Source of the DNA: a virus
DNA: 43,786 nt
Virus record (IMG/VR): IMGVR_UViG_3300035698_020678
Coordinates: 1 to 43,786 of that record
Direction: 5' to 3' (one strand)
Positions 9,508 to 38,133 of the stretch are shown in pieces. The notes under the pieces are model-generated. The model searched no databases, was not told the origin of the DNA, and was given only the letters and a program-made list of their open reading frames with translations. The translations under genes and the position numbers were made by a program. Positions within the stretch are counted from its first letter, which is position 1. Every line of letters starts with the position of its first letter.

Positions 9508-10056
9508 TTAGATCACACAACTTTCACAGGAATCATCTTCTTCATTTGTAGGTGATATAAATTCTTTCGAGTTCAACGTGTCACTTGCTTCTACTCCCAT
9601 TTCGCCTTGTCCATCATGGGTTTGAAAATAGTAGAGTGTCTTCCCTCCAAATTTATACCACATTAAGAGATGCTGAAGCATCTCGGACATTGGAATCTTC
9701 TCATCATCATAATTCATTGGATTATATGATGTGTTGGTTGATATCGCCTGATCAATGTATTTTTGAAGAACAGCCATAATTTTTAGATAACCTATTGGTG
9801 ATTTCTGATCCCAAAGTAATTCATACTTATTCTTTAATCTTGGGTAACCTGGGACGACTTGCTTTAAGACACCATCTTTCGATTGTTTGATTGAAACGAA
9901 AGCCCGAGGAGGTTCTACGCCATTCGTGCTGTTGCTGATCTGTGCAGAAGTGTTATGACTGGTGCATCCATTTGATAATGCATAGGTTTCAGTATTTGTT
10001 GATACATCCCATGTATGCTCAACAGCAATTTGTCTACTGATTCTTCTTATTTTCAT
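9508..10056 (-). CDS. nrdA: Split intein C-fragment + C-terminal part of NrdA
   Basis: 182 aa. Residues 1-35 are an intein C-terminal fragment (MKIRRISRQIAVEHTWDVST ... SNGCTSHN) ending in the diagnostic His-Asn, followed by Thr as +1 extein residue. The rest is NrdA: TSAQISNSTNGVEPPRAFVS, the radical-path pair Tyr-Tyr in KTLYYFQT, and the C-terminal redox cysteines DDSCESCVI. The partner N-fragment is on the preceding gene, overlapping by 23 bases. Trans-splicing would join MALMPAE to TSAQIS, the normal NrdA sequence. No endonuclease domain is present. Confidence 0.9.
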   Translation of the reverse strand: MKIRRISRQIAVEHTWDVSTNTETYALSNGCTSHNTSAQISNSTNGVEPPRAFVSIKQSKDGVLKQVVPGYPRLKNKYELLWDQKSPIGYLKIMAVLQKYIDQAISTNTSYNPMNYDDEKIPMSEMLQHLLMWYKFGGKTLYYFQTHDGQGEMGVEASDTLNSKEFISPTNEEDDSCESCVI

Positions 10057-10987
10057 AGTTTAACTCCTCTAAAGTAATAACGTCATCATTTTCTTCTAGA
10101 TCTTTAACTTCAATCCAAACTTCTCTATTATCTCTGTTAACCAATAATTTATGATTATCAGTGAACCGATACACTTTCCCATCTTCAAATTCAATTTCTG
10201 TCACAGATTGTGGACCATTATAGTAACATTCATATGCGATGCTATCGCTGAGTGCGACTGGTTTAGTAAATGCGAATCTTTGACCTATCATTTGTTCTTC
10301 ATGAACTCGATCGATATCTATATTTCCTAAATCCTGGATAATTTCTGCAAGAGAAATTGGCGTCCCATCTGCTAATTTCATTTCATTATTAAGGGATTGA
10401 CATTCGGCCGGCATAAGCGCCATCAACGTAGAATTTCGAATACCATATTCTTTAAGATCCTTTCTCAAGGTTTTCCAATCCATTCTTTCTTGATGCTTAA
10501 TCAATTCATCCACATCTTTCTTGTAGGTATCAATAGGTAAGATTCCGTCATGATATCTAGTATGATCACTTTTGATACAGGCTCCTTTCTCTTTCGCAAG
10601 GGTCGAGCTCGCTTTAATCAGATAATATGACCATGCTTCTGCGTATTCATCCACTAAAGTCAGGTTAGGCTCTGAATAGGTGGAGTCGTTCTTTGCCAGA
10701 AAATAAGCAAGGTTGATTATGCCTATTCCCAAAGGCCGGTATTCCATACTGTGGAGCTCTGCTGCTAGAACAGGATATTTCTGATAGTCGAGCAGTGCGT
10801 CGAGGCCACGCACTGCCAGTTCACAAGGTCTCGCGAAATCATCTGGTGAACGAACCAAGCCCCAATTAATAGCGGATAAGGTGCACAATGCTATCCTAGA
10901 ATCTGTTGGCGTTCTAACCTCATCTACCATATATGCATATTCTTCAGTGTCATCACCAATTTCATCTACAATTTCATAATCAATCAT
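10034..10987 (-). CDS. nrdA: Middle part of NrdA + split intein N-fragment
   Basis: 317 aa. Residues 1-30 are a linker (MIDYEIVDEIGDDTEEYAYM...). NrdA then resumes at RIALCTLSAINW (second active-site Cys), through PLGIGIINLAYFLAK and LRNSTL-like GIRNSTLMALMPAE. At Cys (CQSLNNEMKLADGTPISLAEI) a split-intein N-fragment of about 120 aa begins. It has an intein block-B-like YRFTDNHKLLV and ends with WIEVKDLEENDDVITLEEL. It needs the C-fragment on the next gene to splice. Its own N-terminus starts de novo, so the junction to NrdA-a is not intein-mediated as far as I can see. Confidence 0.9.
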   Translation of the reverse strand: MIDYEIVDEIGDDTEEYAYMVDEVRTPTDSRIALCTLSAINWGLVRSPDDFARPCELAVRGLDALLDYQKYPVLAAELHSMEYRPLGIGIINLAYFLAKNDSTYSEPNLTLVDEYAEAWSYYLIKASSTLAKEKGACIKSDHTRYHDGILPIDTYKKDVDELIKHQERMDWKTLRKDLKEYGIRNSTLMALMPAECQSLNNEMKLADGTPISLAEIIQDLGNIDIDRVHEEQMIGQRFAFTKPVALSDSIAYECYYNGPQSVTEIEFEDGKVYRFTDNHKLLVNRDNREVWIEVKDLEENDDVITLEELNYENKKNQ

Positions 10988-10988
10988 T

Positions 10989-11102
10989 TTAGTTTTTCCT
11001 TATATGTTTGGTATAATTTCCAAGATCCCATGCTCTCTTGCAACATATACACGAAACTTTTTTCCCCTGTAGATGCACAGTACCGCCTGCATTTTTTGAC
11101 AT
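10989..11102 (-). CDS. 37-aa zinc-finger-like ORF at the NrdA break
   Basis: Frame from ATG 11102 to TAA 10989: MSKNAGGTVHLQGKKVSCIC, then CKRAWDLGNYTKHIRKN. C-x-C-C followed by a His suggests a small metal-binding finger, as seen at the ends of some homing endonucleases. It fills the gap between nrdA-a and nrdA-b, abutting the next ATG. It may be the relic of an endonuclease that split nrdA. Family not certain. Confidence 0.5.
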   Translation of the reverse strand: MSKNAGGTVHLQGKKVSCICCKRAWDLGNYTKHIRKN

Positions 11103-11107
11103 TTAGT

Positions 11108-12568
11108 CTATTTGCTATCAAGTGGGGAATAATTGTCCTTTTTCCGTTGTTTCTTCCATTCTTCTAAATCGGTTTTCTTAATCTTAATTATACGCTTTTC
11201 GGGTTGCCCGTCAGTGATGTTTTCCATTGGTCGAGTCGGTAGGGTAATTTCGGTACAAAGATTAGACATCCGAATAGGGGCCAGTTCAGGTTTGAACGAG
11301 CCGTGTTCATTGGCATGGTCGACGTTCATCAAATAAACTCGACCGGTGTTCTTTCTCTCTTCCATGAAGGCACTGAATAGATCCAGTGCCTTGATAGTCT
11401 TCTTGCGAATACGAGTATTTCTTTCGGCAGTCTCATAAATTTCTTTGAACTTTTCTTGATCTTCGAAGAATGCTTCGTATAATCCCGGGACGTCTGCTGG
11501 ACTAAAAAGGGTGATATCACCATTTTGTATCAGCCGCTCATAAAACAATTTACTTAATTGCACACCATAATCAATATGTCGGACTCTGTTATCATCTGTT
11601 CCCTTGTTGTTCTTGAGCACCAGAAGATCCTCTACTTCATAATGCCAGATCGGATAAAATAGAGTAGCAGCACCACCACGGACACCACCTTGCGAACATG
11701 ATTTCACTGCAGATTGAAACATTTTAAAGAAAGGAATGACGCCTGTGTGATAGACGTCGCCAGACCTAATCGGACTTCCCAGTGCTCTGATACTTCCTGC
11801 TCCGATTCCAATTCCAGCTTTTTGACTAACGTATTTGACAATAGAACTTGTTGCTGCATTGATTGAATCAAGCGAATCGGCTGTTTCGATTAACACACAC
11901 GAAGAAAACTGTCTTTGTGGAGTGCGTACTCCAGCCATAACGGGAGTCGGAAGACTAATCTGGAAGGTAGAAATAGCATCGTAATAATCTTTAACCCATC
12001 GAAGTCTTTCTTCTTTTGGGTAATTGCTAAACAGGCTCATTGCTATCAAAATATAAGCCATCTGTGGTGTTTCATAAATTTCCTTTGTTACCCGGTTTTG
12101 CACCAGGTATTTGCCACGAAACTGTTCCATCCCGGCAAAAGTAATGTCTTCATCTCTAGAGTGCTTGATGTATCGATTGATAATTTCATATTCTTCATCA
12201 CTGTAATCCTCAAGGAGAGAAGGATCGTAAAAACCTAATTCGATATTTTGCTTCACTAATTCTTGAACAGTACACGGATCGAACTGTCCATAGACCTGCT
12301 TCCGAAGATGGTAGGAGATTAATCTTCCGGCGACATATTGATAATTTGGTGTTTCGTCTGTGATTAGGTCCGCGGCAGCTTTGATAAGCGTTTCTTGAAC
12401 ATCCTGTGTTTCTATGTCTTGATAAAATTGAATATGAGATTTGATTTCAATTTCTGATGGGGAAACTCCTGTGATATTTTCACAGGACCAAAAGACTACT
12501 TTATGCAATTTTGCCAAATCTAATGGTTCTTTGGTTCCCTGTCTTTTGGTTACTTGAATCTCCGTCAT
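11108..12568 (-). CDS. nrdA: Ribonucleotide reductase class Ia large subunit, N-terminal part (NrdA-a)
   Basis: 486 aa. Starts like NrdA (VTKRQGTKEPLDLAKLHKVV, ATP-cone). It contains PTPVMAGVRTPQRQFSSCVL (first redox Cys), the specificity-loop region SGDVYHTGVIPFFKMFQ, KSCSQGGVRGGAATLFYP, and the thiyl site MSNLCTEI (Cys438, Glu440). It stops about 45 residues later (PTRPMENITDG plus a basic tail KIKKTDLEEWKKQRKKDN), where intact NrdA would continue to EIALCTLS. The remaining NrdA is on two further genes. Comparable breaks are known in Aeromonas phage Aeh1 NrdA. AGGAGA precedes the ATG. The start lies inside the upstream gene. Confidence 0.95.
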   Translation of the reverse strand: MTEIQVTKRQGTKEPLDLAKLHKVVFWSCENITGVSPSEIEIKSHIQFYQDIETQDVQETLIKAAADLITDETPNYQYVAGRLISYHLRKQVYGQFDPCTVQELVKQNIELGFYDPSLLEDYSDEEYEIINRYIKHSRDEDITFAGMEQFRGKYLVQNRVTKEIYETPQMAYILIAMSLFSNYPKEERLRWVKDYYDAISTFQISLPTPVMAGVRTPQRQFSSCVLIETADSLDSINAATSSIVKYVSQKAGIGIGAGSIRALGSPIRSGDVYHTGVIPFFKMFQSAVKSCSQGGVRGGAATLFYPIWHYEVEDLLVLKNNKGTDDNRVRHIDYGVQLSKLFYERLIQNGDITLFSPADVPGLYEAFFEDQEKFKEIYETAERNTRIRKKTIKALDLFSAFMEERKNTGRVYLMNVDHANEHGSFKPELAPIRMSNLCTEITLPTRPMENITDGQPEKRIIKIKKTDLEEWKKQRKKDNYSPLDSK

Positions 12569-25245: not shown

Positions 25246-26286
25246 ATGAGAGACATCCTAAAAAGTATCAGAGATTTAGCAGAATCGAGCGAGATCCGAT
25301 ACAATTCTAACGAAATCATCAATGCTTTAGATCCACAGGCGATTGGTGCTGAAGACGAAGAATTTGATTTTCTGGAACATCTTAGGTCTCGTATATATCA
25401 ATCTTTTCCAGATTTTGTAACTGGAAGCGATATCCAAAATATTCTTCGTGAGCCTTCGTTTAGAGATTATGCTTCACTTGATACAACTGAATTGCTTGAT
25501 TATGTTTTCACTGCGGCAGGGTTTGACGGTATGCTTGATGAAAACAGTGCAGGCGGTGTCGCTTCAGTTGCTCTTCCGATGGTCGGAGAAGAAGAATTAG
25601 AAGAAGATTGGGGATCAAGTGATTGGACACCGGTTGTTGATTACATTGACCAAGAGATAGAAGCTAATGGATTGACGCTAGAAACAGTCGAACATGCTGC
25701 AATAGCAGCAGCTGACATGTGGTACGATGAAATGGGCTATGAATCACCAGCAAATGCAGTTAATCAGATTATTAGAATGTGGACTCTTCGTTCGGAAACT
25801 GGTAAGAAGATGTCTCAGATGTTCGCCGAGAAAATCCAAGAAAAATCTTTCAAAAGAAAATCCAATGAAGATGATTTGGGAGCTGTGGATCCACAAGCTG
25901 AAGATAAGAAGAAAATTGATTCTATTCAGAAAGAACTAGACAGCAGGATCAACGAAGAAGAAATTCCTGGTCGTATCTTTTTCACAGTTGATTCTGCTGA
26001 AGTATATGATGAAATCATGCTAACACTCGGAGATCGTATTGTTGTCGGCAATGATGGTTTATTTGCAGATGATGAAGAAACTTTTGATAGAGCTGATGAA
26101 ATCTGCTACGAATACGGCTGCTCTGCCGAAAGAGGAAATGATTCTCAGGATGAAAATTGTAGAACTTATGACGATGAAATCACTGTTCATGATGAAATGG
26201 ATGACCAACAAATTGAAGGATTGAGTGACTCAGATAATTATGAAGAAATTTCTCGCATTATGGAATGTGTGACTTTCAGATTCTAA
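25246..26286 (+). CDS. Acidic 346-aa protein, divergent from the operon at 25164
   Basis: Starts MRDILKSIRDLAESSEIRYN, close in style to the MRELMESI leaders. Long acidic helical regions (AEDEEFDFLEHLRSRIYQSF), and a C-terminal domain with IVVGNDGLFADDEETFDRAD. No family recognised. Strong ribosome site (ACTGGAG). Converges on the helicase gene and overlaps it by 4 bases. Confidence 0.65.
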   Translation: MRDILKSIRDLAESSEIRYNSNEIINALDPQAIGAEDEEFDFLEHLRSRIYQSFPDFVTGSDIQNILREPSFRDYASLDTTELLDYVFTAAGFDGMLDENSAGGVASVALPMVGEEELEEDWGSSDWTPVVDYIDQEIEANGLTLETVEHAAIAAADMWYDEMGYESPANAVNQIIRMWTLRSETGKKMSQMFAEKIQEKSFKRKSNEDDLGAVDPQAEDKKKIDSIQKELDSRINEEEIPGRIFFTVDSAEVYDEIMLTLGDRIVVGNDGLFADDEETFDRADEICYEYGCSAERGNDSQDENCRTYDDEITVHDEMDDQQIEGLSDSDNYEEISRIMECVTFRF

Positions 26287-27737
26287 GTTTTATTCTTAAG
26301 ATCAGCAAGCATCCCTATCATGCTTGATTTGTGATCGGGTCTTTCTGTTTGAATTGACTCGCCAGAATCTGATTTGTCAAACACTGGCTTATCGTCTTCG
26401 TCTATATTAACCTTCTTCCTTCTTACGGAATCAAGTACCGATTTAGATGACCTATGTTTTTGTCCTTCATCTTCATCCGGATGATCACTGATCTTCAATG
26501 TATCAATATCATACGCCATCAAAATCTTCCGGCCATTGCCACTTGAGTTTCTGGTCTTAACGAATTGAAATTGCATCTCACCGCGTTCACGCATCGGCAT
26601 GCTAGCATAAACCGCTACCATATTATCTGCCGTATACGCTTTTGAAATACCTCCAGCAACGCCTGAAATACTGAACTCCATTTCATCCATGCCGTCTCGA
26701 TTAATCTGAGAAGCACTGATTATAGTTGTCTTTTTACCTAGTTTTGTTCGATCTACAGCCATTGATCGAAGCTCTTCTGAGACTAGTTTGTCTTTCATAA
26801 AGAAATCACCAGCTCCAATAGTTTTGTCTGATGGTCTCAACAAATCTAGATAATCAACTATGATAATATTTGGTAAGATCCCTGTTCTAATTTCATACTC
26901 ATGTAAATAGGCTTCTACATCCAATGTGGTGGATTGTGGTCGCATGTACTTTAATTGAAGTCGTCCTACTCCTCTAGTCTTTCCTTTCAGTATGACAGCA
27001 GCTTCAACGTCATCGATTTTTCTGTTCAGCAAATTTAATGGGATACCGGTCAGTTGTCCATCGATACGTTTAGCAACCAATTCTTCTTTCAATTCCAATG
27101 TGATATAGACGACATTGAGACCATTCCCCAATGCACGTTCGATCATAAGACGCGAAATATTCTGCAATGCTACTGATTTACCACCACCAGTAGGAGCCAC
27201 GAATATTTCCAATTCTCCCCAACCAAAACCACCAAATAAGACTTTATCTATTGATTTCCAGCCAGTCGACAATTCGCCTTGTTCATCTTTGAGACGCTCC
27301 ATTCTTGCACGAGGATCTTCAAAATAATCCAATCCTAGATCACGTTGTAGACTAATCAAGGTGGCATCCTTGACTATTTTTTCAATTCCCGCACTGTTCC
27401 CACTGTTAATTCTCTCTGCACATTCCAGAACAGCCAATTCGACTGCTCTATGCTTGCAAAATTCTTCTATCATGTCCAGAGCAGCGATGCTGTGATTTTG
27501 ATTGAAGTCAGAAATTTTATTGAATTCTTGTTTTGTCTGTGCTTTTAATTGTTCAACCGTTGGAAGAGTACTATATTCTTTACTAAATTGATGCAAATAG
27601 GTGACCGTGTCTTGAAACTCAATGTGAAAATAGTTTGGTTCTAAGATGGGAGCTGCTCTGACAAATAATTCTGGATCAGTTAGCAATGTCTCCAAAAGGA
27701 ACTTTTGTGTTGTTTTGTCGTAATTTATCTTAGCCAT
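26283..27737 (-). CDS. Replicative DnaB-type helicase (T4 gp41-like)
   Basis: 484 aa. Helical N-terminal domain, then a RecA-type motor: STGWKSIDKVLFGGFGWGEL, Walker A APTGGGKS (about 181-188), ITLELKEELVAKRI, Walker B NIIIVDYLDLL, and the sensor region TTIISASQINRDG with FQFVKTRNSSG. It unwinds DNA at the fork as a hexamer and works with the primase, whose stop overlaps its ATG. C-terminal tail acidic and variable. Ends in TAA. Confidence 0.93.
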   Translation of the reverse strand: MAKINYDKTTQKFLLETLLTDPELFVRAAPILEPNYFHIEFQDTVTYLHQFSKEYSTLPTVEQLKAQTKQEFNKISDFNQNHSIAALDMIEEFCKHRAVELAVLECAERINSGNSAGIEKIVKDATLISLQRDLGLDYFEDPRARMERLKDEQGELSTGWKSIDKVLFGGFGWGELEIFVAPTGGGKSVALQNISRLMIERALGNGLNVVYITLELKEELVAKRIDGQLTGIPLNLLNRKIDDVEAAVILKGKTRGVGRLQLKYMRPQSTTLDVEAYLHEYEIRTGILPNIIIVDYLDLLRPSDKTIGAGDFFMKDKLVSEELRSMAVDRTKLGKKTTIISASQINRDGMDEMEFSISGVAGGISKAYTADNMVAVYASMPMRERGEMQFQFVKTRNSSGNGRKILMAYDIDTLKISDHPDEDEGQKHRSSKSVLDSVRRKKVNIDEDDKPVFDKSDSGESIQTERPDHKSSMIGMLADLKNKT

Positions 27738-28732
27738 TGACTCTTCTTAATTTTTATCATCATTTCACCATCTACTGCTGAATTTATTATACTATGAACA
27801 GTCCATGTTCGTCCATATTTTCTTGATGCCTGTTCTGCATCTTTTATTTCTTCGTGCCATGGCGGAAAGGCCACCATCCACTCTTGTTCTATAGCTTGAT
27901 CAATCATCGATCCGCCAGCCTGATCCCTATCTGCTAAAACTATTATTCTTTTTTCTGTTCCCTTCAGCCATTGTAGCTGCTTTTCTGTGATCCTATTCTT
28001 CATGATACCTATACCGTCAATGGCGGCGGCATCTAACGCCCCTTCTACTAATACCAAGTATTTACGATAAGGTTCATCTAACAGATCAGCGTTATACATG
28101 AAACCCGAAGGAATATCATTAATATATTTTGGATGATCATTCGGTGGTCCATCAAACCATCGCATACTTGTCCCAAGAATATCACCTTTGTATTTCAAAG
28201 GAATTATGATACGTCCATCTTTTCTCCCAATATGATCATCAGTCCAATGAAAATCAATTAATTCTAGAAGCTTTGCGTTTCGTTCATTGATATATTTCAA
28301 TGCTTCAATGAATTTTTTAGGTGGATCATCCATTTGGATCCACTCATTGAAACTCTTCGCTCCTTTTGGTAGTTGTCGAGGTTTTAGATCAGGATAGAAT
28401 TGAAGTTTTTCGACTTCATCCATCTGCTCAATCTTAAGAGAAGCTAGCTTTAGTTTTTGGATCTGTTCGTGTCCTGCACCCAATGCCTCAAGGTACATCG
28501 TTACTTCTTTGCTGATAGGGAAACCAGGTGACCAGCCCGAACTGAAATGACAGTTATGACAATAAAAGAAGAATCCACCTTTGTTGAACACACTCTGTCC
28601 TCGTCCCCTCGTGTCTCGGCTTGATTCTCCATTAAGATGACATATCGGACAATTGAATAACTGCCATCCAGTTGGTCCAGTCTTTCTTTTATGAGGAAGG
28701 AGAAGAGCTACTTGTTCTTGAATTTCATTCAT
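27725..28732 (-). CDS. DNA primase (T4 gp61-like)
   Basis: 335 aa. N-terminal zinc ribbon: NCPICHLNGE ... FFFYCHNCHFSSGW (two CxxC pairs). The catalytic TOPRIM core shows the Glu in LVLVEGALDAAAIDGIG and the Asp pair in RIIVLADRDQAGGSM. It makes RNA primers for lagging-strand synthesis. It directly precedes the helicase with a 13-base overlap, as expected for a primosome pair. Confidence 0.92.
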   Translation of the reverse strand: MNEIQEQVALLLPHKRKTGPTGWQLFNCPICHLNGESSRDTRGRGQSVFNKGGFFFYCHNCHFSSGWSPGFPISKEVTMYLEALGAGHEQIQKLKLASLKIEQMDEVEKLQFYPDLKPRQLPKGAKSFNEWIQMDDPPKKFIEALKYINERNAKLLELIDFHWTDDHIGRKDGRIIIPLKYKGDILGTSMRWFDGPPNDHPKYINDIPSGFMYNADLLDEPYRKYLVLVEGALDAAAIDGIGIMKNRITEKQLQWLKGTEKRIIVLADRDQAGGSMIDQAIEQEWMVAFPPWHEEIKDAEQASRKYGRTWTVHSIINSAVDGEMMIKIKKSQWLR

Positions 28733-28770: not shown

Positions 28771-29469
28771 TTATCTCCAGAGTAGATCGAAAGTTCCCTT
28801 CATTACCTGTTTGACTGTAGCGGTCTTACCAGAATTATGATCAGTGACAATATCATCTTGGAAACGATAGGTTCTGATTTTGTCACCTCTCATCCCCGAA
28901 CCTACCTGATTTCTTCGACTTTCTGCTGTTTTATCATTGATTTCTCCAGTCGTAGCTTGATCAAGTAATTTTTCCAAAGCTATTCTAGCATCACGTTGAT
29001 TATTTTGGCGACTTCGTCCTTGTCTGGTCTCCACTAAGCCTGTGGGTAAATGATACAATCGACAACATGATTGGGATTTATTTCGTTTTTGGCCACCTTT
29101 TCCGGTACCACTAAACCATTCGACATAAAAATCATGACTATCTCTTTTTTGATAGCGCGGATCGATCTCTATATCTTGTCCCATAACCGCCACCGTGACG
29201 GTACTGGTATGAACTCGATCTCTTTTTTCGGTGGGAGGAATCCGTTGGATTCGATGTCCACCTTTTTCCTGTTCTAATTTTTGGAGTTTTTTGCCAGTAA
29301 ATTCAATGGCAATCATAAAATGTCCCGAGCCAGAAGGACGCTCTTCAGTGACTCGAGAAGTTCAACCTAAACGAATTGCTAATTTGTGGTACGCTTGTGC
29401 GAGATCAGCTACGAATAATTGACTATCAGCTCCGCCTTCTGCGGAACGAATTTCAATGGTTCTTTTCAT
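28771..29469 (-). CDS. RF1-like peptide chain release factor with in-frame TGA
   Basis: Frame from ATG 29469 (GGAGG about 9 bases upstream) to 28771, 231 sense codons plus one TGA (29362-29364, codon 36). EIRSAEGGADSQLFVADLAQ, HRIQRIPPTEKRDRVHTSTV and the catalytic GGQ in GTGKGGQKRNKSQS show a class I release factor lacking the N-terminal domain. The recognition motif is PxT (PPT), as in RF1, so UAA/UAG reading is expected. TGA sits at a position where RF1 proteins usually have Trp (AIRLG-W). Readthrough as Trp, or a second start at 29316, would be needed. It lies just downstream of the tmRNA. Confidence 0.8.
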
Positions 29470-29494
29470 TTTCTTCATCCTCCGTTTAAGTTAG

Positions 29495-29850
29495 TGACGG
29501 TTTATTCTGTTGCCAGGAAAACCGTCAAAACCCCGAATAAATTCACTTAGGATTAAGCCGCTAGGCTAAATTCCATTTCGAAATTATCATTGCTCGCCGT
29601 TAGGTTTGCATTTATATTGTTTCTTCGCGTTAACCCAGCTTAGATCGGGAATACCTACACTTCACCTTTACTACACCTGTCGATCCTATTTCGATCCCGT
29701 ATTGCCATCATTCAGTGTTTCTAAGCATTACCTTAAAGGAGTCAGTCTCCTGTCTGGCTGTTGGTGGAATCGCGGGGTACCGCCCCCCGGTCCAGTGCGT
29801 CTATTCTGTTTAGTATCAAACAGTATTAAGTTTATTTATACACTCTTTAT
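29495..29850 (-). ncRNA. ssrA: Circularly permuted (two-piece) tmRNA
   Basis: On the minus strand the acceptor piece comes first, ending T-arm CGGGG/CCCCG, CGATTCC, A, CCA (29762-29764). After a 63-nt spacer comes the 5' end GGGATCG (29692-29698), which pairs with CGATTCC. The hallmark GGATCGACAGG and GGTGAAGTGTAGG follow. The tag ORF is 29553-29609, GCA...TAA, giving ANLTASNDNFEMEFSLAA, ending LAA and containing NDNF as in alphaproteobacterial tags. A GACGGTTT/AAACCGTC hairpin closes the coding piece. tmRNA frees stalled ribosomes and tags their products. Outer ends are estimates. The T-loop (GGCGGTA) is unusual. Confidence 0.88.
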
Positions 29851-29863
29851 GCGAAAAGTCAAA

Positions 29864-30004
29864 TTAAAAATTCATTCGCTGCTCTAACAACGGTCGAAGA
29901 CGAGATTCAAGGCTATCAAAGTTTAAACCATGCAATTCATCAAATTGGACAGGAGGTTCTCGCATGAATTCTAGCGCCGACGTCGGAATGTCCATCTGTT
30001 CCAT
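29864..30004 (-). CDS. Hypothetical 46-aa protein upstream of the tmRNA
   Basis: MEQMDIPTSALEFMREPPVQ ... RPLLEQRMNF-TAA looks coding. The best ribosome site (AAGGAG) instead serves an ATG at 30032 in another frame (MFNRSMTILNGTDG...), which stops at 29940 inside this ORF. Either a short leader couples to this gene, or an indel split one gene. It ends 14 bases before the tmRNA region and is probably co-transcribed with it. Confidence 0.5.
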   Translation of the reverse strand: MEQMDIPTSALEFMREPPVQFDELHGLNFDSLESRLRPLLEQRMNF

Positions 30005-30101
30005 TTAATATAGTCATTGAGCGATTGAACATTTTATTCTCCTTACTATTTTAATATAACGAAAATTTGCACAAAAATCAATAAATAAACGAGGAGACAA
30101 A

Positions 30102-30567
30102 ATGATAGAAAAAGAAACCAGCGTAGAATTTAAAGAACCCGCAAAAAAATGGCACATACGCTTTTTTTCATTTCTGAATGACGTGAAGCTGCTAGCTGGT
30201 GCATTAATTCTTCTTCCTTTCTTTGGTTCTCAGATCAACAGCATGATCAGTTGGGGGAGACACTATCTACAACATCAATGCGCGGCTTTCTACGTACGCG
30301 ACCGCCGAAGACACCGTCGACGTCGCGTTGGACGTCTTGCTTTTTATTGAACCAGCTATCAGAGACGATATCATCTCCTTGCAATTCACCATCGATGAAA
30401 TAGTTAAATTTGATGATAATGGTCCCGAAACACTAGCGGTTCTTGAAGAGCTTCGAAGGCAATATCAAAACAAAATCTTAGAGCTTGATCGCATCCAAAA
30501 TCGGATTAGAATCTACGATCCAGAATGGTTAAGCTTAGAAGAACAAGAGAAGGAGTTTTACAGATGA
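30102..30567 (+). pseudogene. Small membrane protein split by a +1 in a G5 run
   Basis: Starts MIEKETSVEFKEPAKKWHIR with one TM (VKLLAGALILLPFFGSQI). At 30253-30257 (ggggg) the frame becomes nonsense (RRRHRRRR), while shifting by one base gives GDTIYNINARLSTYATAEDT and continues smoothly to IYDPEWLSLEEQEKEFYR. One extra G, a sequencing error or programmed slippage would explain this. Together about 155 aa: N-terminal TM and a helical C-terminal domain. Plus-strand pair with the next gene; a lysis or envelope role is possible. Confidence 0.6.
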
Positions 30568-30797
30568 CTCGATTATTTGCTGGTTTTTTGACAATGGCGT
30601 TAGGTATTTTCTTAGCGGGAGCGTCAACGGGAACTAACCATATTGATTTGATTTCCATAGAAAAAAGAGCCACTATTCAGGAGCAAGTAGCAACTGTTAT
30701 GCAAGTTTCTGCCACTGTTCAGCAACAAATTAGAGCATGTAATAGAATTCCAAATCTAGAATTAAGACAAAGATGTCTGAATCAGATCAAGCGTTAG
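30564..30797 (+). CDS. Small exported/membrane protein, 77 aa
   Basis: Start at MTRLFAGFLTMALGIFLAGA, whose ATG overlaps the previous TGA (ATGA). A signal-peptide-like or TM segment precedes a helical domain with a Cys pair (RACNRIPNLELRQRCLNQIK). Gene order (TM helical protein then small exported protein) recalls spanin pairs, but no lipobox is present, so this is only a suggestion. Confidence 0.55.
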   Translation: MTRLFAGFLTMALGIFLAGASTGTNHIDLISIEKRATIQEQVATVMQVSATVQQQIRACNRIPNLELRQRCLNQIKR

Positions 30798-31036
30798 AAA
30801 TCTCCAGGATAAGCTAAATCTCTTTCCTTTTCATTCATTGCAAAATATCCTCGCACAATTTCCTTAGCAGAATCGAGATCTGACCCTTGTCTTTCACATT
30901 CTTCGATCATAGCGGGGACGTGCTTCACGTCTGCATATATTGGTCTAGGTTCCATTGCTTGAGTAGCTTCGACTAGGTTTGCTCGTGCCTTAGATTCGTA
31001 AAGGTCTTGAAGTTGTAAAAAGCTATAAACAATCAT
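30794..31036 (-). CDS. Hypothetical 80-aa protein
   Basis: MIVYSFLQLQDLYESKARAN, with AMEPRPIYADVKHVPAMIEE and a C-terminal FAMNEKERDLAYPGDF. Helical; no family recognised. Overlaps the Sm-like gene by 4 bases (ATGA), so the two are coupled. Confidence 0.55.
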   Translation of the reverse strand: MIVYSFLQLQDLYESKARANLVEATQAMEPRPIYADVKHVPAMIEECERQGSDLDSAKEIVRGYFAMNEKERDLAYPGDF

Positions 31037-31353
31037 AAGCTTTTCCCCGTTCCTAGAACGATGCCGGATGTCTGCTGTTGAAATTCCTGGACGATTGGAT
31101 GGTTAAATGGCGGCTTCGATCTGATAGCGATCGCATTTTTCTCGATATCAATATTTTGTGTCGGTTCTGAAACCATCAAAGCAGGTGTCAATCCCAGTGC
31201 TAATCCTTGAGGAGTATTTTGAGCACTGATTGAAAATGCTTTTGATATGGTAATTGATAGACTCGATTCTGATTGAAATCGTCCAATAATTTCTTCACCT
31301 GAAACGAGTTTGATAACGATCACGTCGTTCAGCGTGTATTTCTGTGATAACAT
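31033..31353 (-). CDS. Sm-like (LSm/Hfq-fold) protein
   Basis: 106 aa. DVIVIKLVSGEEIIGRFQSE followed by SLSITISKAFSISAQ matches the Sm1 pattern of bent beta strands with G-x-x-x-x-G, as in small phage Sm-like proteins. The C-terminus is polar. Such proteins may bind RNA; with two RNA arrays and a tmRNA close by, an RNA-chaperone role is attractive but unproven. Confidence 0.6.
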   Translation of the reverse strand: MLSQKYTLNDVIVIKLVSGEEIIGRFQSESSLSITISKAFSISAQNTPQGLALGLTPALMVSEPTQNIDIEKNAIAIRSKPPFNHPIVQEFQQQTSGIVLGTGKSL

Positions 31354-31414
31354 TTGGGTCTCCGTTGTTTAGTTACTGTTTATTTATTGTTCTTTTTCGT
31401 GTCAAAATCAAGAC

Positions 31415-31448
31415 AAAAAAAGAGCTACCAGAAGGTAGCTCTTTTTTG
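31415..31448 (-). terminator. Strong terminator ending the second RNA array
   Basis: Stem AGAGCTACC/GGTAGCTCT with a 4-nt loop, flanked by runs of A and T, so it can work in both directions. On the minus strand it ends the transcript of the second tRNA-like array before the Sm-like gene. Confidence 0.88.
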
Positions 31449-31690
31449 GGAACCAAATGGAACCTCCACCACTAGCTTTTACGAAGCTAGAAACGTTCTT
31501 TAGTCTTCTTTAGTCTTCTTTAATCTGGTTTTTCGAAAACCCTACGTAAGGCTTTAGCTGGAAATTTAATCGACTCTTCGATTACGTCAATCACAAGGCA
31601 GACAATGTTTCCACGATCCGCACGGGATATTTCCGGAAGCGGTTAAACCGGAGCACACTGAGGAAGAATCCGCTTTTTGAAACTAATTTA
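31449..31690 (-). other. Structured 3' region of the array with an ORF remnant
   Basis: Several short hairpins (CTAGCTT/AAGCTAG, GGTTTTTCGAAAACC, CCGGTTTAACCGCTTCCGG) and a threefold 10-bp repeat (tagtcttctt, 31501-31522). One minus-strand frame ending TAA 31520 reads VIDVIEESIKFPAKALRRVF with no clear start, likely a gene fragment. No complete gene. Confidence 0.35.
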
Positions 31691-31691
31691 G

Positions 31692-31790
31692 TAGACTAGA
31701 CAGGAATCGAAGCCTGTATTTCTCATCTCAAACGAGTGTCTTGCCATAGGAACGTCACATAGGTAACGATGCCAATTAGACGACTAGTCT
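31692..31790 (-). tRNA. tRNA with 28-nt D-loop insertion (TGA-like anticodon)
   Basis: Acceptor AGACTAG/CTAGTCT pairs fully and ACAGG/CCTGT forms a T-arm. D-stem GTCT/AGAC encloses a loop enlarged by 28 nt (31742-31769) bounded by TGGCA direct repeats. Removing one repeat unit restores AATTGGCA. The anticodon arm is weak; CTCG-TTTGAGA-TGAG would give TGA. Interrupted tRNA or decayed gene. Confidence 0.5.
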
Positions 31791-31801
31791 ATTTGATAGA
31801 T

Positions 31802-31873
31802 TTCTTTGTCGAGAATTGCACCCGAAGTTGGCCAGATGTAGTCCAACTGCATGCCTATCCATGCTACAATTAC
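31802..31873 (-). tRNA. Degenerate tRNA-like element (TAC-like loop)
   Basis: T-arm TCGGG-TGCAATT-CTCGA, D-stem GCAT/ATGC, anticodon stem GTTGG/CTGGC with loop ACTACAT (C33, TAC). The acceptor strands pair poorly. It overlaps the permuted element next to it. Confidence 0.35.
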
Positions 31874-31875
31874 TC

Positions 31876-31960
31876 AATACCAACATTAGGCGCATTCCAC
31901 TTATGCTACCGAGATCATCTCGAGATGGATTCGAGCCATCATCTCCACTAAGTAATCGGC
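31876..31960 (-). tRNA. Second permuted tRNA-like element
   Basis: The 3' half comes first: anticodon strand TTAGTG (31946-31951), T-arm GATGG-CTCGAAT-CCATC, acceptor TCGAGAT (31917-31923). After one nucleotide comes the 5' half: acceptor ATCTCGG (31909-31915), D-stem GCAT/ATGC, anticodon strand CCTAA (31886-31890). The acceptor pairs over all 7 positions and the anticodon strands over 4. Same layout as 950-1022. The junction again lies in the anticodon loop. Confidence 0.5.
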
Positions 31961-32620
31961 TGTCAGGATCGACCCTTGGTTTTGGGGAACCACCCCCAGG
32001 ACCACGCCCTATTCAACCTATCCGTTCGCCTCCTCCTAAGATTAGCTTTGGTCCAACGAACTATAAAGCCCTCCACTAACCTGCGTTTTCTTTTTTTAAC
32101 CCCCAGCTTTCAGGACAACTGCAAAACCTCCACTGATGGGCCACTCGCCTCTCAGGCGAATTAGTATTAGAAGAAGATTTTTTCAGTAGGTGACCTGCTG
32201 GTATCTTCCCTTGGATCGCCATGCTGCTCTCCGCGTAAGGTGGCCCATACATCTAGGTCACCAAGGGTCTGTCTGCTTTCAATGCCCGGCACTATCCTTA
32301 CTAATAGGCTTTATTTGACATTTCCAGTCCCAGCTCTTCTTCTAATTTCTTTTCGATGAACTTATGGATTCGAACCATTAGTCCCTAAGACCGCGCCAAG
32401 CACCTCAAACCCTTTCGGGCCTTGCAAGATCGAGGTAGTCATCGAAATAATGTTTCGCCGGGGGTGCGCTTACCACCAAATGGATTCGAACCATCTTTAT
32501 TGACAAAGTCAATATCCAACCGTGGCCCTGTAGCTATCCAGGGTCCGACGAAATAAAAGGCCAGGAGCATCATTGCTGTAGCTCAACTGGAAGTCTAAAT
32601 AATTGGTATCTGGCGGGGGG
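31961..32620 (-). other. tRNA-fragment-rich non-coding stretch
   Basis: No coding frame stands out. Recognisable pieces: a 75-nt unit 32188-32262 with perfect acceptor GGTGACC/GGTCACC but no clear arms; an element 32354-32443 with T-loop TTCGAAT, acceptor GATGACT/GTTCATC and an enlarged D-loop; an element 32471-32544 with T-loop TTCGAAT and anticodon arm TATTG-ACTTTGT-CAATA (TTT, C33); and at 32574-32590 a plus-strand tRNA 5' piece (GCTGTAGCTCAACTGG). It reads as a decayed or rearranged tRNA array. Confidence 0.5.
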
Positions 32621-32866
32621 TTATTGCACCCTAGTGAGCGTATTGATCACCTTTCTCACTATTTTATCCTTCTCCTCCGGGTCATGACTCCCCTTGGACG
32701 CAACTATGCGAGACCAAACCTCGTGTAGTACAGGATCAAGATCCATGTCATCCCGTACCGCGTTACCCTCTCTCAGCCATTCAAGGTCAGCTATTTCAGG
32801 GCCGTTTAATCTTTGCAATCCACGGTAGTTTCCGCCACCTGATTGCACTCCCCTTGAATATTTCAT
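32621..32866 (-). CDS. Hypothetical 81-aa protein inside the second array
   Basis: ATG at 32866: MKYSRGVQSGGGNYRGLQRL, then PEIADLEWLREGNAVRDDMD, DPVLHEVWSRIVASKGSHDP and a C-terminal EEKDKIVRKVINTLTRV. Composition is convincingly coding; family unknown. No Shine-Dalgarno. A 14-bp direct repeat (32779-32792 and 32867-32880) suggests an 88-bp insertion near the N-terminus. Deleting it would fuse an upstream frame (KWRTTADLE) to WLREGN. Confidence 0.5.
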   Translation of the reverse strand: MKYSRGVQSGGGNYRGLQRLNGPEIADLEWLREGNAVRDDMDLDPVLHEVWSRIVASKGSHDPEEKDKIVRKVINTLTRVQ

Positions 32867-32880
32867 ATTCAAGGTCAGCT

Positions 32881-33535
32881 GTTGTTCGCCATTTTAGGGC
32901 CCTTTTCAGTTATTCCCTTAAGGTAGGCGTTCCCTTCCTCCTCTACAGCCACTTATCAGATGATCAATCTAACAGCCCGGCTTATCTTTGAAATTCTGCT
33001 AATAGGTGATGAGCCCTTACCGGGTTAGCACTCCGTCGGCCGCTTCCACTGCCTCACGACAGTTTCAATTTTATCCTACGACCTTTGAGGTCATCAACTA
33101 AGGTAATGTAGGAGCAACCAATTCTAAAATTCTGCACCGTTTGATTATGCTTTGAGCGCTCTCCACATAACCCGTGTTATTCCCTTCCGGGCTGCCACGG
33201 TGCCACTGCATTTTGTGTATTGGGTCGGAGTCGAACCGAAATGCCGTCGCCCATTTTTACTTCTGGAATTGAACCAGTTACCTAGCCACCTAGGCCCAAA
33301 TTCTTTTTCAAACTTCGAAGTCCGGCCCCTCACTCCGCCGACGACGCGACTTGTCTCATGCCAAACGACCTTAGTCGTTCATCGTACAAGTCTTCCATGT
33401 TCCGTAGCACCCGTCTCCGCCCCTATGTCGGAGATTCTAAAACCTGCTACTCGGTTCCTTTGGCCTTCTCCCAACCGGGTCCGATTGAGGTGATCTCCAA
33501 AGAATTTTCTCGAGCCTTTGTCTTCTAAGTTCGTT
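32881..33535 (-). other. Non-coding or decayed stretch with isolated tRNA T-arms
   Basis: Holds tRNA 3'-type T-arms without matching 5' halves (33226-33242 with TTCGACT; 33266-33281 with TTCAATT), a short frame EEEGNAYLKGITEKGPKMAN near 32896-32960, and GC-richer sequence than the flanks. No intact gene or full cloverleaf found. Confidence 0.4.
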
Positions 33536-33670
33536 TTTCAGGTGGGATTTGAACCCACGGCCTTTTTTATGGATACTTCATTCAACTAGCAAACTTTTCT
33601 CCAACCTGCGAATTTTTCGGGCCATTTACTCATCTTAGCAGGAGTTGCTCTACCGCTGAGCTACCGAATT
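33536..33670 (-). tRNA. Interrupted tRNA-like element (Ser-GCT-like)
   Basis: The 5' half GGTAGCTCAGCGGTAGAGC and anticodon segment CTGCTAA (GCT) are separated from a 3' half T-arm GTGGG-TTCAAAT-CCCAC by about 60 nt flanked by GGCC repeats (33626-33629 area and 33560-33563). The acceptor strands do not pair convincingly. Intron-like insertion or a chimera. Confidence 0.35.
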
Positions 33671-33870
33671 CATGCGTCTTATGGGCTCTTCACCCTGCGC
33701 TTGTTAAAAATTTTGTAAATCAACCAAACAATTGATTCGCAGAATCTTTAACTCTTCCGCCGTATTGTCTCCGCAGCCTTACCTGCCAACGAGTCCTCCA
33801 CGGTCCCCTTGCTGCTTTGTGGTTTTTATTGAGGTCACTGGACCAAGGTCTCCGTCCTCATTACTTTTTA
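33671..33870. other. Leader of the second array, no gene seen
   Basis: Between the first tRNA-like element and the proximal promoter I see no ORF with coding character and no complete tRNA. Pyrimidine-rich on the plus strand. Confidence 0.4.
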
Positions 33871-33899
33871 AGTATATAGTAACTTAAACCATTTGTCAA
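33871..33899 (-). promoter_or_regulatory. sigma70 promoter P1 of the second array
   Basis: Minus strand TTGACA (33894-33899), 17-bp spacer, TATACT (33871-33876). Same boxes and spacing as the first array promoter. Confidence 0.85.
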
Positions 33900-33979
33900 C
33901 ACCTTTTTTAGGTTTTTTTAAACTTTTTTCGTCTTCTCAAGGTCAACGTCTTCGTCTTGTTTCCCTTTATGTTAACCTT

Positions 33980-34008
33980 ACTATATAACAGTTCTAGGGT
34001 CTTGTCAA
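33980..34008 (-). promoter_or_regulatory. sigma70 promoter P2 of the second array
   Basis: Minus strand TTGACA (34003-34008), 17-bp spacer, TATAGT (33980-33985), about 110 bp upstream of P1. Tandem promoters imply strong transcription of the array. Confidence 0.82.
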
Positions 34009-35616: not shown

Positions 35617-35682
35617 GTTCTTGTCATAATAAAAATCCTCTTCATCAATAAATAAGTGAAATTAGTTCTAGAGGAGCATTTA

Positions 35683-36948
35683 ATGTCAACTGCTATTAAG
35701 CGTAGAAGAGGAACTTCAGTTCAACATTTGACGTTTGCCGGGCTTGAAGGTGAGATTACCATCAACACTGACAAAGAAACCGCAATCGTCCACAATGGTG
35801 CTACTAATGGCGGGTTTACTCTTCTTAGAGAAGACATGGCGAACTATGATGGGACTTTGATCAATAACCTTCGCTCTCAGGCAATTGATGACAACGCAAC
35901 GAACGGAACAGCCCAATTGATCATCGCTGATGCTGGGATTTTAGTTGGAGCTGCAACTGGAGGGACTCAGGGTGTAGATAGTCTTAATGCGGCGGATCTT
36001 TACATCAACGGTTCTCAGGTTCCTGGAAAATCAAACGATGAAACCATCACTGGTGATTGGACCTTTACTGGAACAGTAACCAATGTCGACACCGTTGACT
36101 TGAACGTTGCAGACAACGTCATTCTCATTAACTCCGGTGAAGTCGGTGCAGGAGTTACACTTGGTTCTGCTGGGCTTCGAGTTGATCGCGGTTCGTCCAC
36201 CGATGCTAGCCTGATTTTTGATGAAGCAGACGACACTTGGAAAATAGGAATCCTTGGATCTGAAGTTGCCATTGCGTCGGGTGGATCATTAAGCATAGAT
36301 GACACCAGTTTGGTCATAACTGATACTGGTTCCGACGGTACGATCACCTTTACAAACGACGGTGCAGTTTCTGGTGTGATTGATAATGTAGGAGATTGGG
36401 ATTTTCAAAATGGTAACTTAACGACTACTGGCACATTAGACGCTGCTGATTTTTTTGACAACGGAACGAACATCAATACGATTTATGCTACTCTAGCGAG
36501 TCCGGCGTTGACAGGAACACCATCAGCTCCAACTGCAGCAGGTGGAACCAATACCACTCAAGTGGCGACTACAGCTTTTGTCCTAGGTGAAGTTGGATCA
36601 GCATCGAGTCTAACAGTTGGTGATACGACTATCGTGTTAAGTGATACTGGAACCGACGGTACCATTATTTTAACCACTGACGGAGCAATTGGTCTAACAA
36701 TAGACAATAATCAAAATGTTGTCATTGGTAATAGCCAATTGGCGGATGCAGCTACTGACGGATTCATTTATATTCCGAATACCACCGCAGGTCTTCCATC
36801 TGGTTCTCCAACGGCTTTCACTGGAAGATCACCATTAGTGTATGATGACACGAATGATTTTCTTTACGTGCATAATGGAGCATCTTGGTCACAGATAGGT
36901 GGTTCAGATCCGGATGCTGGACTAGCCTATGCTATTGCATTCGGTTGA
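35683..36948 (+). CDS. Tail-fibre/virion protein, 421 aa
   Basis: Start chosen at MSTAIKRRRGTSVQHLTFAG with GAGGAG just upstream. The N-terminal module (LEGEITINTDKETAIVHNGA) matches the phage tail anchoring module also present in 13014-14753. The body has repeated beta strands (IVLSDTGTDGTIILTTDGAI and SLVITDTGSDGTITFTNDGA are internal repeats) and an SPTAFTGRSPLVYDD-type end typical of tail-fibre tips. Likely baseplate or fibre component. An AATAAATAAG box lies 30 bases upstream. Ends TGA TAA. Confidence 0.75.
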   Translation: MSTAIKRRRGTSVQHLTFAGLEGEITINTDKETAIVHNGATNGGFTLLREDMANYDGTLINNLRSQAIDDNATNGTAQLIIADAGILVGAATGGTQGVDSLNAADLYINGSQVPGKSNDETITGDWTFTGTVTNVDTVDLNVADNVILINSGEVGAGVTLGSAGLRVDRGSSTDASLIFDEADDTWKIGILGSEVAIASGGSLSIDDTSLVITDTGSDGTITFTNDGAVSGVIDNVGDWDFQNGNLTTTGTLDAADFFDNGTNINTIYATLASPALTGTPSAPTAAGGTNTTQVATTAFVLGEVGSASSLTVGDTTIVLSDTGTDGTIILTTDGAIGLTIDNNQNVVIGNSQLADAATDGFIYIPNTTAGLPSGSPTAFTGRSPLVYDDTNDFLYVHNGASWSQIGGSDPDAGLAYAIAFG

Positions 36949-36988
36949 TAAGACTAAATAAGACAAAGGAGTCATTTAGGAGAAAACT

Positions 36989-37339
36989 ATGGCCAATACA
37001 TTTAAAAATTTTCGTGGAGATGTGACAGCGGCGACCGATACTGTAATTGTTCCGGAAGCTGGTGGAACCGCTTTTACTAGATCAAGGGCGGCGGCGTCTA
37101 CGTGTGTGGTTCACGCCATTTATATTTCAAATACAGATGGTGCGTCTTCAGTAGATGTTGATATCACGGTCTTTGATGGATCGAACAGCTATTTTATTGG
37201 TTTTGGGATTCCAGTGCCAGCCGGCTCAACACTAATTCTAGATAAGCCAGTCAATCTCGAAACGACCGATCGTCTGCGTGTTAAGACCACGTCAACTGAT
37301 GACGTTGACGTTGTCTGTGCTGTTCTAGAAATCACATAA
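36989..37339 (+). CDS. Small structural protein, 116 aa
   Basis: Beta-rich, Thr/Val/Asp-rich (VIVPEAGGTAFTRSRAAAST, IYISNTDGASSVDVDITVFD, LRVKTTSTDDVDVVCAVLEI). Resembles short phage virion accessory proteins next to fibres. Ribosome site AGGAGAAAACT; a CTAAATAAG box precedes it. No named family. Confidence 0.65.
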   Translation: MANTFKNFRGDVTAATDTVIVPEAGGTAFTRSRAAASTCVVHAIYISNTDGASSVDVDITVFDGSNSYFIGFGIPVPAGSTLILDKPVNLETTDRLRVKTTSTDDVDVVCAVLEIT

Positions 37340-37349
37340 GGAGCTTAGA

Positions 37350-38018
37350 ATGAGCTACGTTGGAAATATTCCGGTTTTACAATTATTCAAAAAAACTGAT
37401 TTCACTGGTGACGGTTCGACTACTAGCTTTGATTTAGTTGATCCAGTCACTTCTGTAAATGGTATTCTTGTGGTTGCCGGTGGAGTTCCACAGGAACCAA
37501 CCACAGCATATACTATCGAAACCAGCCCTTTTGCAACCACACTAGAATTTTCCGTTGCACCGGCGAACGGAGTTGACATTTATGTCGTTTGGTTAGGTTC
37601 TCCAGGTTCAGATGATATCGACCTTTCAACCTATGTACGAGTAACAGATAATAGACTCAATGAAATTCATACCTTAGTGGTTTCAGATGAGACTACTGCG
37701 TTAACTGCTACAACTGACGTCTTTACCTTCAGGATGCCTTATGCTTTTACTTTAACAGAGGTTAGAGCTTCTGTCAATACTGCACCAACTGGCGCTACAT
37801 TGATTGTTGACATAAACGAGACAGGAACCACTGTCCTTTCAACAAAGCTTTCGATCGATGTTGGCGAAACGACAAGCACGACAGCAGCGTCACCAGCAGT
37901 GATTTCAGACGCAAGCATAGCAGATGATGCAGAAATTTCAATCGACGTTGATCAGATCGGGAGTGGAACTGCTGGCGCGGGATTGAAAGTCTATTTGATC
38001 GGTTACGCAACGGCATAA
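37350..38018 (+). CDS. Structural/tail protein, 222 aa
   Basis: Two parts: an N-terminal FTGDGSTTSFDLVDPVTSVN ... DIYVVWLGSPGSDDIDLSTY domain common in phage fibres and connectors, and a C-terminal beta domain (FTFRMPYAFTLTEVRASVNT, TLIVDINETGTTVLSTKLSI) like fibre-associated proteins. Close spacing to the previous gene (10 bases) suggests one operon. Confidence 0.68.
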   Translation: MSYVGNIPVLQLFKKTDFTGDGSTTSFDLVDPVTSVNGILVVAGGVPQEPTTAYTIETSPFATTLEFSVAPANGVDIYVVWLGSPGSDDIDLSTYVRVTDNRLNEIHTLVVSDETTALTATTDVFTFRMPYAFTLTEVRASVNTAPTGATLIVDINETGTTVLSTKLSIDVGETTSTTAASPAVISDASIADDAEISIDVDQIGSGTAGAGLKVYLIGYATA

Positions 38019-38133
38019 TCTTTATTCTTTATCAAAATATCATAAAATTAGCGTGACTTCAGCTGACGCTAGTGTCAAGCAAAATAAAAAGAAACTCTAA
38101 TAAATACGAGTGTAGAATTATTGGAGAACAAGA

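Follow-up and report, generated by a model that had tools for sequence, protein, structure and literature searches.

Record IMGVR_UViG_3300035698_020678 of IMG/VR is a 43,786-base virus record, analysed here at full length (the window), in which a circularly permuted gene for transfer-messenger RNA (tmRNA) lies directly beside a gene for an RF1-like release factor whose reading frame is interrupted by a single UGA. The tmRNA had already been recognised in an earlier description made from the letters alone (the sequence-only reading), which was right about this RNA but overlooked the adjoining release-factor gene with its in-frame UGA. The features on which the rest of this text depends are the following.

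29493–29867, minus strand: circularly permuted tmRNA gene of the two-piece, alphaproteobacterial type (Rfam RF01849 and ARAGORN)
29762–29817, minus strand: acceptor piece of the tmRNA, the tRNA-like 3' part with the TPsiC arm and CCA (RF04321 alignment, CCA end)
29699–29761, minus strand: 63-nucleotide intervening spacer (length measured), presumably removed by processing
29553–29698, minus strand: coding piece of the tmRNA, from GGGATCG through the tag stop codon, with tag ANLTASNDNFEMEFSLAA (ARAGORN, Rfam, measurement)
28771–29469, minus strand: RF1-like release factor without domain 1, with one in-frame UGA (translation, domain and model searches, predicted fold)
29362–29364, minus strand: the in-frame UGA, codon 36, in the context GGT TGA ACT, at the site of a conserved RF1 tryptophan (alignments and family parse)

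An RF1-like release factor interrupted by UGA

The release-factor gene starts 24 nucleotides downstream of the tmRNA on the same strand, with an ATG at 29469 behind GGAGG and a stop at 28771, and its frame is open apart from the single TGA at codon 36. Translated through this codon, it carries the domains PCRF (E 6e-23) and RF-1 (E 1e-18), and its best NCBIfam model is RF1. The scores against the prfA equivalog models are below cut-off (187.8 bits vs 400 for NF001859, 185.9 vs 423.25 for TIGR00019), and the match covers only the part after domain 1, the protein beginning at about RF1 position 107. The NCBIfam model release_prfH scores 45.9 bits, short of its cut-off of 166.65. RF1 is also the best fold match of the predicted structure, which has a mean predicted local distance difference test (pLDDT) score of 91 and a template modelling (TM) score of 0.91 to ribosome-bound RF1 (8akn). 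The GGQ and PPT motifs are found throughout the first family alignment (seven sequences), in which the RF1-type residues Q77, P80, P81, T82 and E83 are invariant, while in the widest alignment Q, T, E and GGQ are invariant and both prolines exceed 90%. In place of the RF2-type anticodon motif SPF, the window protein has PPT. Sequence and structural model thus point to an RF1-type release factor consisting of domains 2–4, which, given its PxT-type motif, should act at UAA and UAG.

The UGA is conserved across a phage family

The UGA codon aligns with the tryptophan (Trp) in the GW of RF1. Relatives were collected in family scans with five alignments or proteins as queries, using patterns that do not contain the TGA, and parsed into sets of 106 distinct sequences (first three scans) and then of 133 (all scans, parsed by motif). 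Every sequence in either set (all 133 distinct phage genes in the end) has exactly one in-frame TGA in the segment, with no TAA or TAG there and no change of frame, and three further sequences missed by the motif parser likewise hold the TGA. It stands at the Trp codon in 131 of the 133; in the other two, L397 and L442, the Trp is back to TGG and an in-frame TGA follows four and two codons later, respectively. Since these two genes carry a displaced TGA beside a restored TGG, the UGA is retained although its position can shift.

The codon also resists substitution. A tree of 111 sequences, 25.9 substitutions per site in length, shows 12–31 A/G third-base changes at each of eleven other invariant Glu, Lys or Gln codons and none at the UGA, which is a single transition away from UGG. 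The ratio of nonsynonymous to synonymous substitution rates (dN/dS, 48 pairs) is 0.10 upstream of the UGA and 0.13 downstream of it, the latter value arguing that the segment behind the UGA is made and used. As for its surroundings, the codon before the main-site UGA is GGN (AGC once) and never CUU, and the base that follows is A in 102, G in 19 and C in 12 of the 133 genes. In E. coli it is a U after UGA that gives the strongest termination, and since this base never occurs here the termination context looks weak.

Outside phages, an in-frame UGA was found in five bacterial copies (Thalassospira xianhensis, Rhodovibrio sodomensis and three alphaproteobacterial metagenome-assembled genomes, MAGs), and in each of the four genomes searched among these five, uninterrupted RF1 and RF2-like genes are present as well. 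That the factor might be a bacterial core gene was considered and rejected, and its bacterial occurrence is sporadic, because searches of 385 genomes of one carrier's class and of 29 genomes of another's family returned only those carriers themselves (G032 and G031, respectively). A UGA-containing factor in a Rhodospirillales MAG (L144, 5001–5699) is apparently chromosomal, near genes that read from their translations as an S9 peptidase, a phosphoglycerate mutase, a greA-like and a carB-like gene. Matches in INPHARED were uninformative on this family: six that were inspected resemble bacterial RF1 or RF2 sequence, and four or five come from megaphages with a TGA elsewhere.

In a phylogenetic tree the UGA family forms a clade apart from RF1 (support 98/99), with two relatives in which a frameshift-like site is found instead. 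In a Hahella MAG (L147, 5118–5130), nested in the UGA clade (97/92), the Trp is TGG and there is a +1 frame change at CTT TAG C, a site that would be the RF1-type counterpart of the RF2 frameshift. In a proteobacterial MAG (L150, 5091–5103), which lies outside the clade and has the PPT motif, the +1 frame change is at CTT TGA C, which is the canonical site of RF2 frameshifting. Although each is a single MAG contig, in which a sequence error is possible, together they fit a swap of one stop-dependent control for another.

The permuted tmRNA

The sequence-only reading had described a phage-borne, circularly permuted tmRNA of alphaproteobacterial type and had proposed a covariance-model search as its test, and the outcome is clearly in its favour. 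RF01849 (alpha_tmRNA) matches over model positions 1–355 of 355 with 111.9 bits (E 7e-30) against an Rfam cut-off of 50, RF04321 (tmRNA_permuted) matches at 29553–29817 with 88.9 bits (cut-off 47), and ARAGORN calls a permuted tmRNA at 29462–29855 on the minus strand with the same tag; a permuted tmRNA at this locus is thus far above chance expectation. The described architecture, an acceptor piece ahead of the coding piece, a 7-bp acceptor pairing and a 63-nucleotide spacer, was reproduced on re-measurement. The spacer is exactly 63 nucleotides (the CCACCA end is at 29762, GGGATCG starts at 29698, and the CCA is encoded), and the acceptor halves CGAUUCC and GGGAUCG form, in the Rfam alignment, seven pairs that include G3.U70, a known alanine identity element. 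The tag frame opens at GCA behind AUAUAAAU, matching the Rfam model, and ARAGORN agrees with the open reading frame of 18 residues and its degradation end LAA; tagged peptides would end NDNFEMEFSLAA.

Two features do not stand out as special. The tag was said to be longer than usual, but tag lengths among the permuted tmRNAs of related phages run from 10 to 26 residues, so that 18 is not exceptional. Nor is a two-piece permuted tmRNA special for a phage, since two-piece tmRNAs have already been reported in marine phages such as Melnitz, tmRNA having been found in 402 of 18,146 phage genomes, with 53 of 133 distinct structures two-piece and nearly all of these aquatic (PMC9004378). With permuted phage tmRNAs known and a tag length in the range of its relatives, the tmRNA is a fresh example of an already known kind and by itself adds no new one.

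Phage setting and candidate UGA-reading tRNAs

Three further features of the window bear on its origin and on the decoding of UGA.

27725–28732, minus strand: DNA primase, the gene after the release factor (phrog_47, E 5e-26)
26283–27737, minus strand: DnaB-like replicative helicase (phrog_19, E 3e-64)
4470–4541, minus strand: phage tRNA-Trp(CCA) with an A27.C43 mismatch and a 4-bp anticodon stem, candidate UGA reader (ARAGORN and comparison)

The primase and helicase are of the type found in T4 and large myoviruses and, together with tail-fibre proteins at 35656–41265, bear out the phage setting that had been assumed for the tmRNA; tRNA genes, at least 16 of them, are clustered at 123–5104. 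The window probably represents part of a large phage, given that the isolates closest by helicase are phages about 350 kb in size. The 4 kb or so from the tmRNA to the tail-fibre genes (29900–34000) are gene-poor, with short open reading frames only. At 9508–12568 on the minus strand, a ribonucleotide reductase alpha gene is seemingly split over several open reading frames, with junctions that look intein-like by eye (e.g. ...CTSHN-TSAQ).

Transfer RNAs of the kind found at 4470–4541 read UGA in E. coli, as shown with C27A (PMC13092985). A dedicated UGA-reading tRNA-Trp is a lead only: A27.C43 occurs in only part of the tRNA-Trp from factor-bearing phages and also in factor-less phage loci, many records gave no tRNA-Trp match, and the tRNA-Trp do not generally show the Hirsh A24 signature. 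In one factor-bearing phage, a tRNA that was called as selenocysteine (SeC), with the anticodon UCA (L109, 5307–5378, minus strand), is a possible UGA suppressor.

Association of the tmRNA with the release factor

A permuted tmRNA was found in 22 of 30 phage records chosen for carrying the release factor. Of the 23 records that have both, 7 place them no more than 3 kb apart, where 1.85 would be expected (P ~7e-4, ignoring ancestry), and these close pairs occur in both gene orders, with a gap of 24–35 nucleotides in four cases. Adjacency, unlike co-occurrence, is above expectation and argues for related functions. Permuted tmRNAs were also seen near a different, shorter phage protein with an RF-1 domain and without the UGA segment (L038, 4846–5393; L047, 4020–4391).

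Probable gating of the release factor by readthrough

We consider it likely that the locus forms a translation cassette of the phage (in the order permuted tmRNA, 24 nucleotides, RF1-like factor, primase, helicase) with a release factor that is gated by UGA readthrough and senses slow UGA termination. We also lean towards the broader view that this factor belongs to an RF1-like family, widespread in large phages and sporadic in proteobacteria, which would depend on obligatory UGA readthrough, sense failing UGA termination and often stand beside a permuted tmRNA. In this scheme, of which we infer the readthrough, the inserted residue, the codon specificity, the sensing logic and the cooperation with the tmRNA, efficient termination at UGA would yield a 35-residue fragment only. 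When UGA termination is slow (e.g. through a shortage of RF2 or an impaired ribosome), the UGA would be decoded by a near-cognate tRNA, tRNA-Trp being the likeliest, and readthrough would give the full-length factor of 232 residues, which would probably release peptides at UAA and UAG through its PxT-type motif. The gate would sense RF2 activity or a general failure of termination rather than the factor's own product, because the RF1-type residues predict no reading of UGA. The adjoining tmRNA, presumably cut in two and charged with alanine like an ordinary ssrA RNA, would tag proteins and free stalled ribosomes, clearing those that are without a stop codon.

Several points weigh against this interpretation. 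The PxT-type motif and the invariant Gln predict a factor that is blind to UGA, which would make the loop less tidy than RF2 autoregulation, and neither a common RNA element nor a suppressor tRNA dedicated to the UGA was found. A permuted tmRNA is also present in 8 of 38 helicase-related contigs without the factor (most of them much shorter, so that this rate and the 22 of 30 are not directly comparable); co-occurrence is not specific, and the idea that tmRNA and factor form an obligatory pair was rejected. The adjacency test, for its part, ignores shared ancestry. Finally, in the record with the closest helicase (L251, record G037; 73% identity) a permuted tmRNA lies near the helicase with no match to the factor, which suggests that the factor was gained or lost there.

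The alternative that survives best is true autoregulation, in which the phage factor itself would terminate at UGA and its own abundance would set the readthrough, as RF2 does via frameshifting. This would suit the fact that the stop is UGA in all 133 genes and never UAA or UAG, since a simple feedback needs a product that reads that stop, and L147, whose UAG should be readable by an RF1-type factor, fits the same logic. However, the five residues from Q77 to E83 are of RF1 type, all best matches are RF1, and RF1-type PxT factors do not read UGA, which leaves autoregulation, for which the motif would have to be misleading, as a rather unlikely competitor of gating by readthrough. We give considerably less weight, and judge it improbable, that the UGA closes a short leader peptide, with a downstream restart that produces a truncated factor. 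An in-frame ATG does exist in the window (29316) and opens a frame of 181 codons, but the stretch ahead of the UGA codes for conserved RF1 residues (EIRxAEGGxDS) and is under purifying selection, the same frame continues beyond the UGA, and the truncated form would be without part of domain 2.

It is very hard to maintain that the phage or its host reads UGA as Trp by a changed code, with nothing regulated, even if the position of the UGA in 131 of the 133 genes is what reassignment would give. In the larger genes of the window (8652 codons) there is no other in-frame TGA against 106 TGG, the Trp that is invariant at position 120 of this protein is encoded by TGG throughout (111 of 111 sequences), and one third of mechanically called open reading frames end in TGA (119 of 363, from 15 regions of factor-bearing phages and the window); on these grounds of TGG/TGA usage, Trp120 and TGA as an ordinary stop, a recoded phage genome was rejected. 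Moreover, the UGA is off the Trp codon in L397 and L442, and standard-code genomes, that of Thalassospira among them, carry copies alongside uninterrupted RF1 and RF2-like genes. A lone stop within a frame normally points to a pseudogene, a sequencing error or an assembly artefact, an explanation that the 133 distinct contigs, the bacterial genomes and the low dN/dS on both sides of the UGA refute to the point where we give it practically no credence. Equally negligible is selenocysteine, for which UGA is the codon and the UCA-anticodon tRNA of L109 might speak, but the site is that of a conserved RF1 Trp, no conserved RNA structure or selenocysteine insertion sequence (SECIS) was found around the UGA in 34 diverse sequences, and release factors are not known to have a redox role.

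Significance and comparison with known systems

An early in-frame UGA in a release-factor gene is a textbook case of translational autoregulation, known only via +1 frameshifting in RF2. Judging from its conservation, the in-frame UGA of the present family would be a new form of stop-codon-controlled release-factor expression, the mechanism of which we infer. No earlier report of this arrangement was found among the open-licence literature, and one may exist elsewhere. An in-frame UGA with a continuing frame was considered before the RF2 gene was sequenced, an arrangement found in no RF2 gene and with no known RF1 counterpart (Atkins et al., 2016, PMC5009743), and a survey saw no sign of programmed control in prfA (Prince et al., 2025, PMC12421855). 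Huge phages encode RF1, RF2 and tmRNA according to an excerpt of PMC7162821, in which an in-frame stop is not mentioned.

This matters in several respects: (i) with the arrangement present in all 133 distinct phage genes, the readthrough idea becomes directly testable, (ii) phages may monitor how well translation termination works in the host, (iii) gene callers will split or drop this UGA-interrupted gene and (iv) phage tmRNA gains a concrete setting, with a second termination factor next to it in several lineages.

Among known systems, the alphaproteobacterial (RF01849) and Melnitz-type phage tmRNAs have in common with the one described here the gene order, the acceptor stem, the core motifs, the LAA tag end and the phage setting, but here the tag has 18 residues and the neighbour just downstream is a UGA-interrupted release factor, not a glutamine riboswitch or a transcription coactivator. 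With RF1 (prfA) the phage factor shares domains 2–4, GGQ, the PxT-type motif and the fold, whereas it is without domain 1 and has the in-frame UGA. The ribosome-rescue factor RFH (prfH) is likewise a class-I factor without domain 1, but the phage factor is far below the prfH cut-off and has RF1-type decoding residues. Bacterial prfB (RF2), with its +1 frameshift at CUU UGA C, has in common an early in-frame UGA and an expression tied to slow UGA termination. In contrast to prfB, the phage family has no frame change and no CUU/Shine-Dalgarno element, and its anticodon motif is of RF1 rather than RF2 type, though what look like frameshift sites occur in the two outliers (CUU UAG C in L147, CUU UGA C in L150). 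The layout is instead identical to the UGA readthrough once proposed for RF2, an early in-frame UGA with the frame continuing behind it, found here in an RF1-like phage factor.
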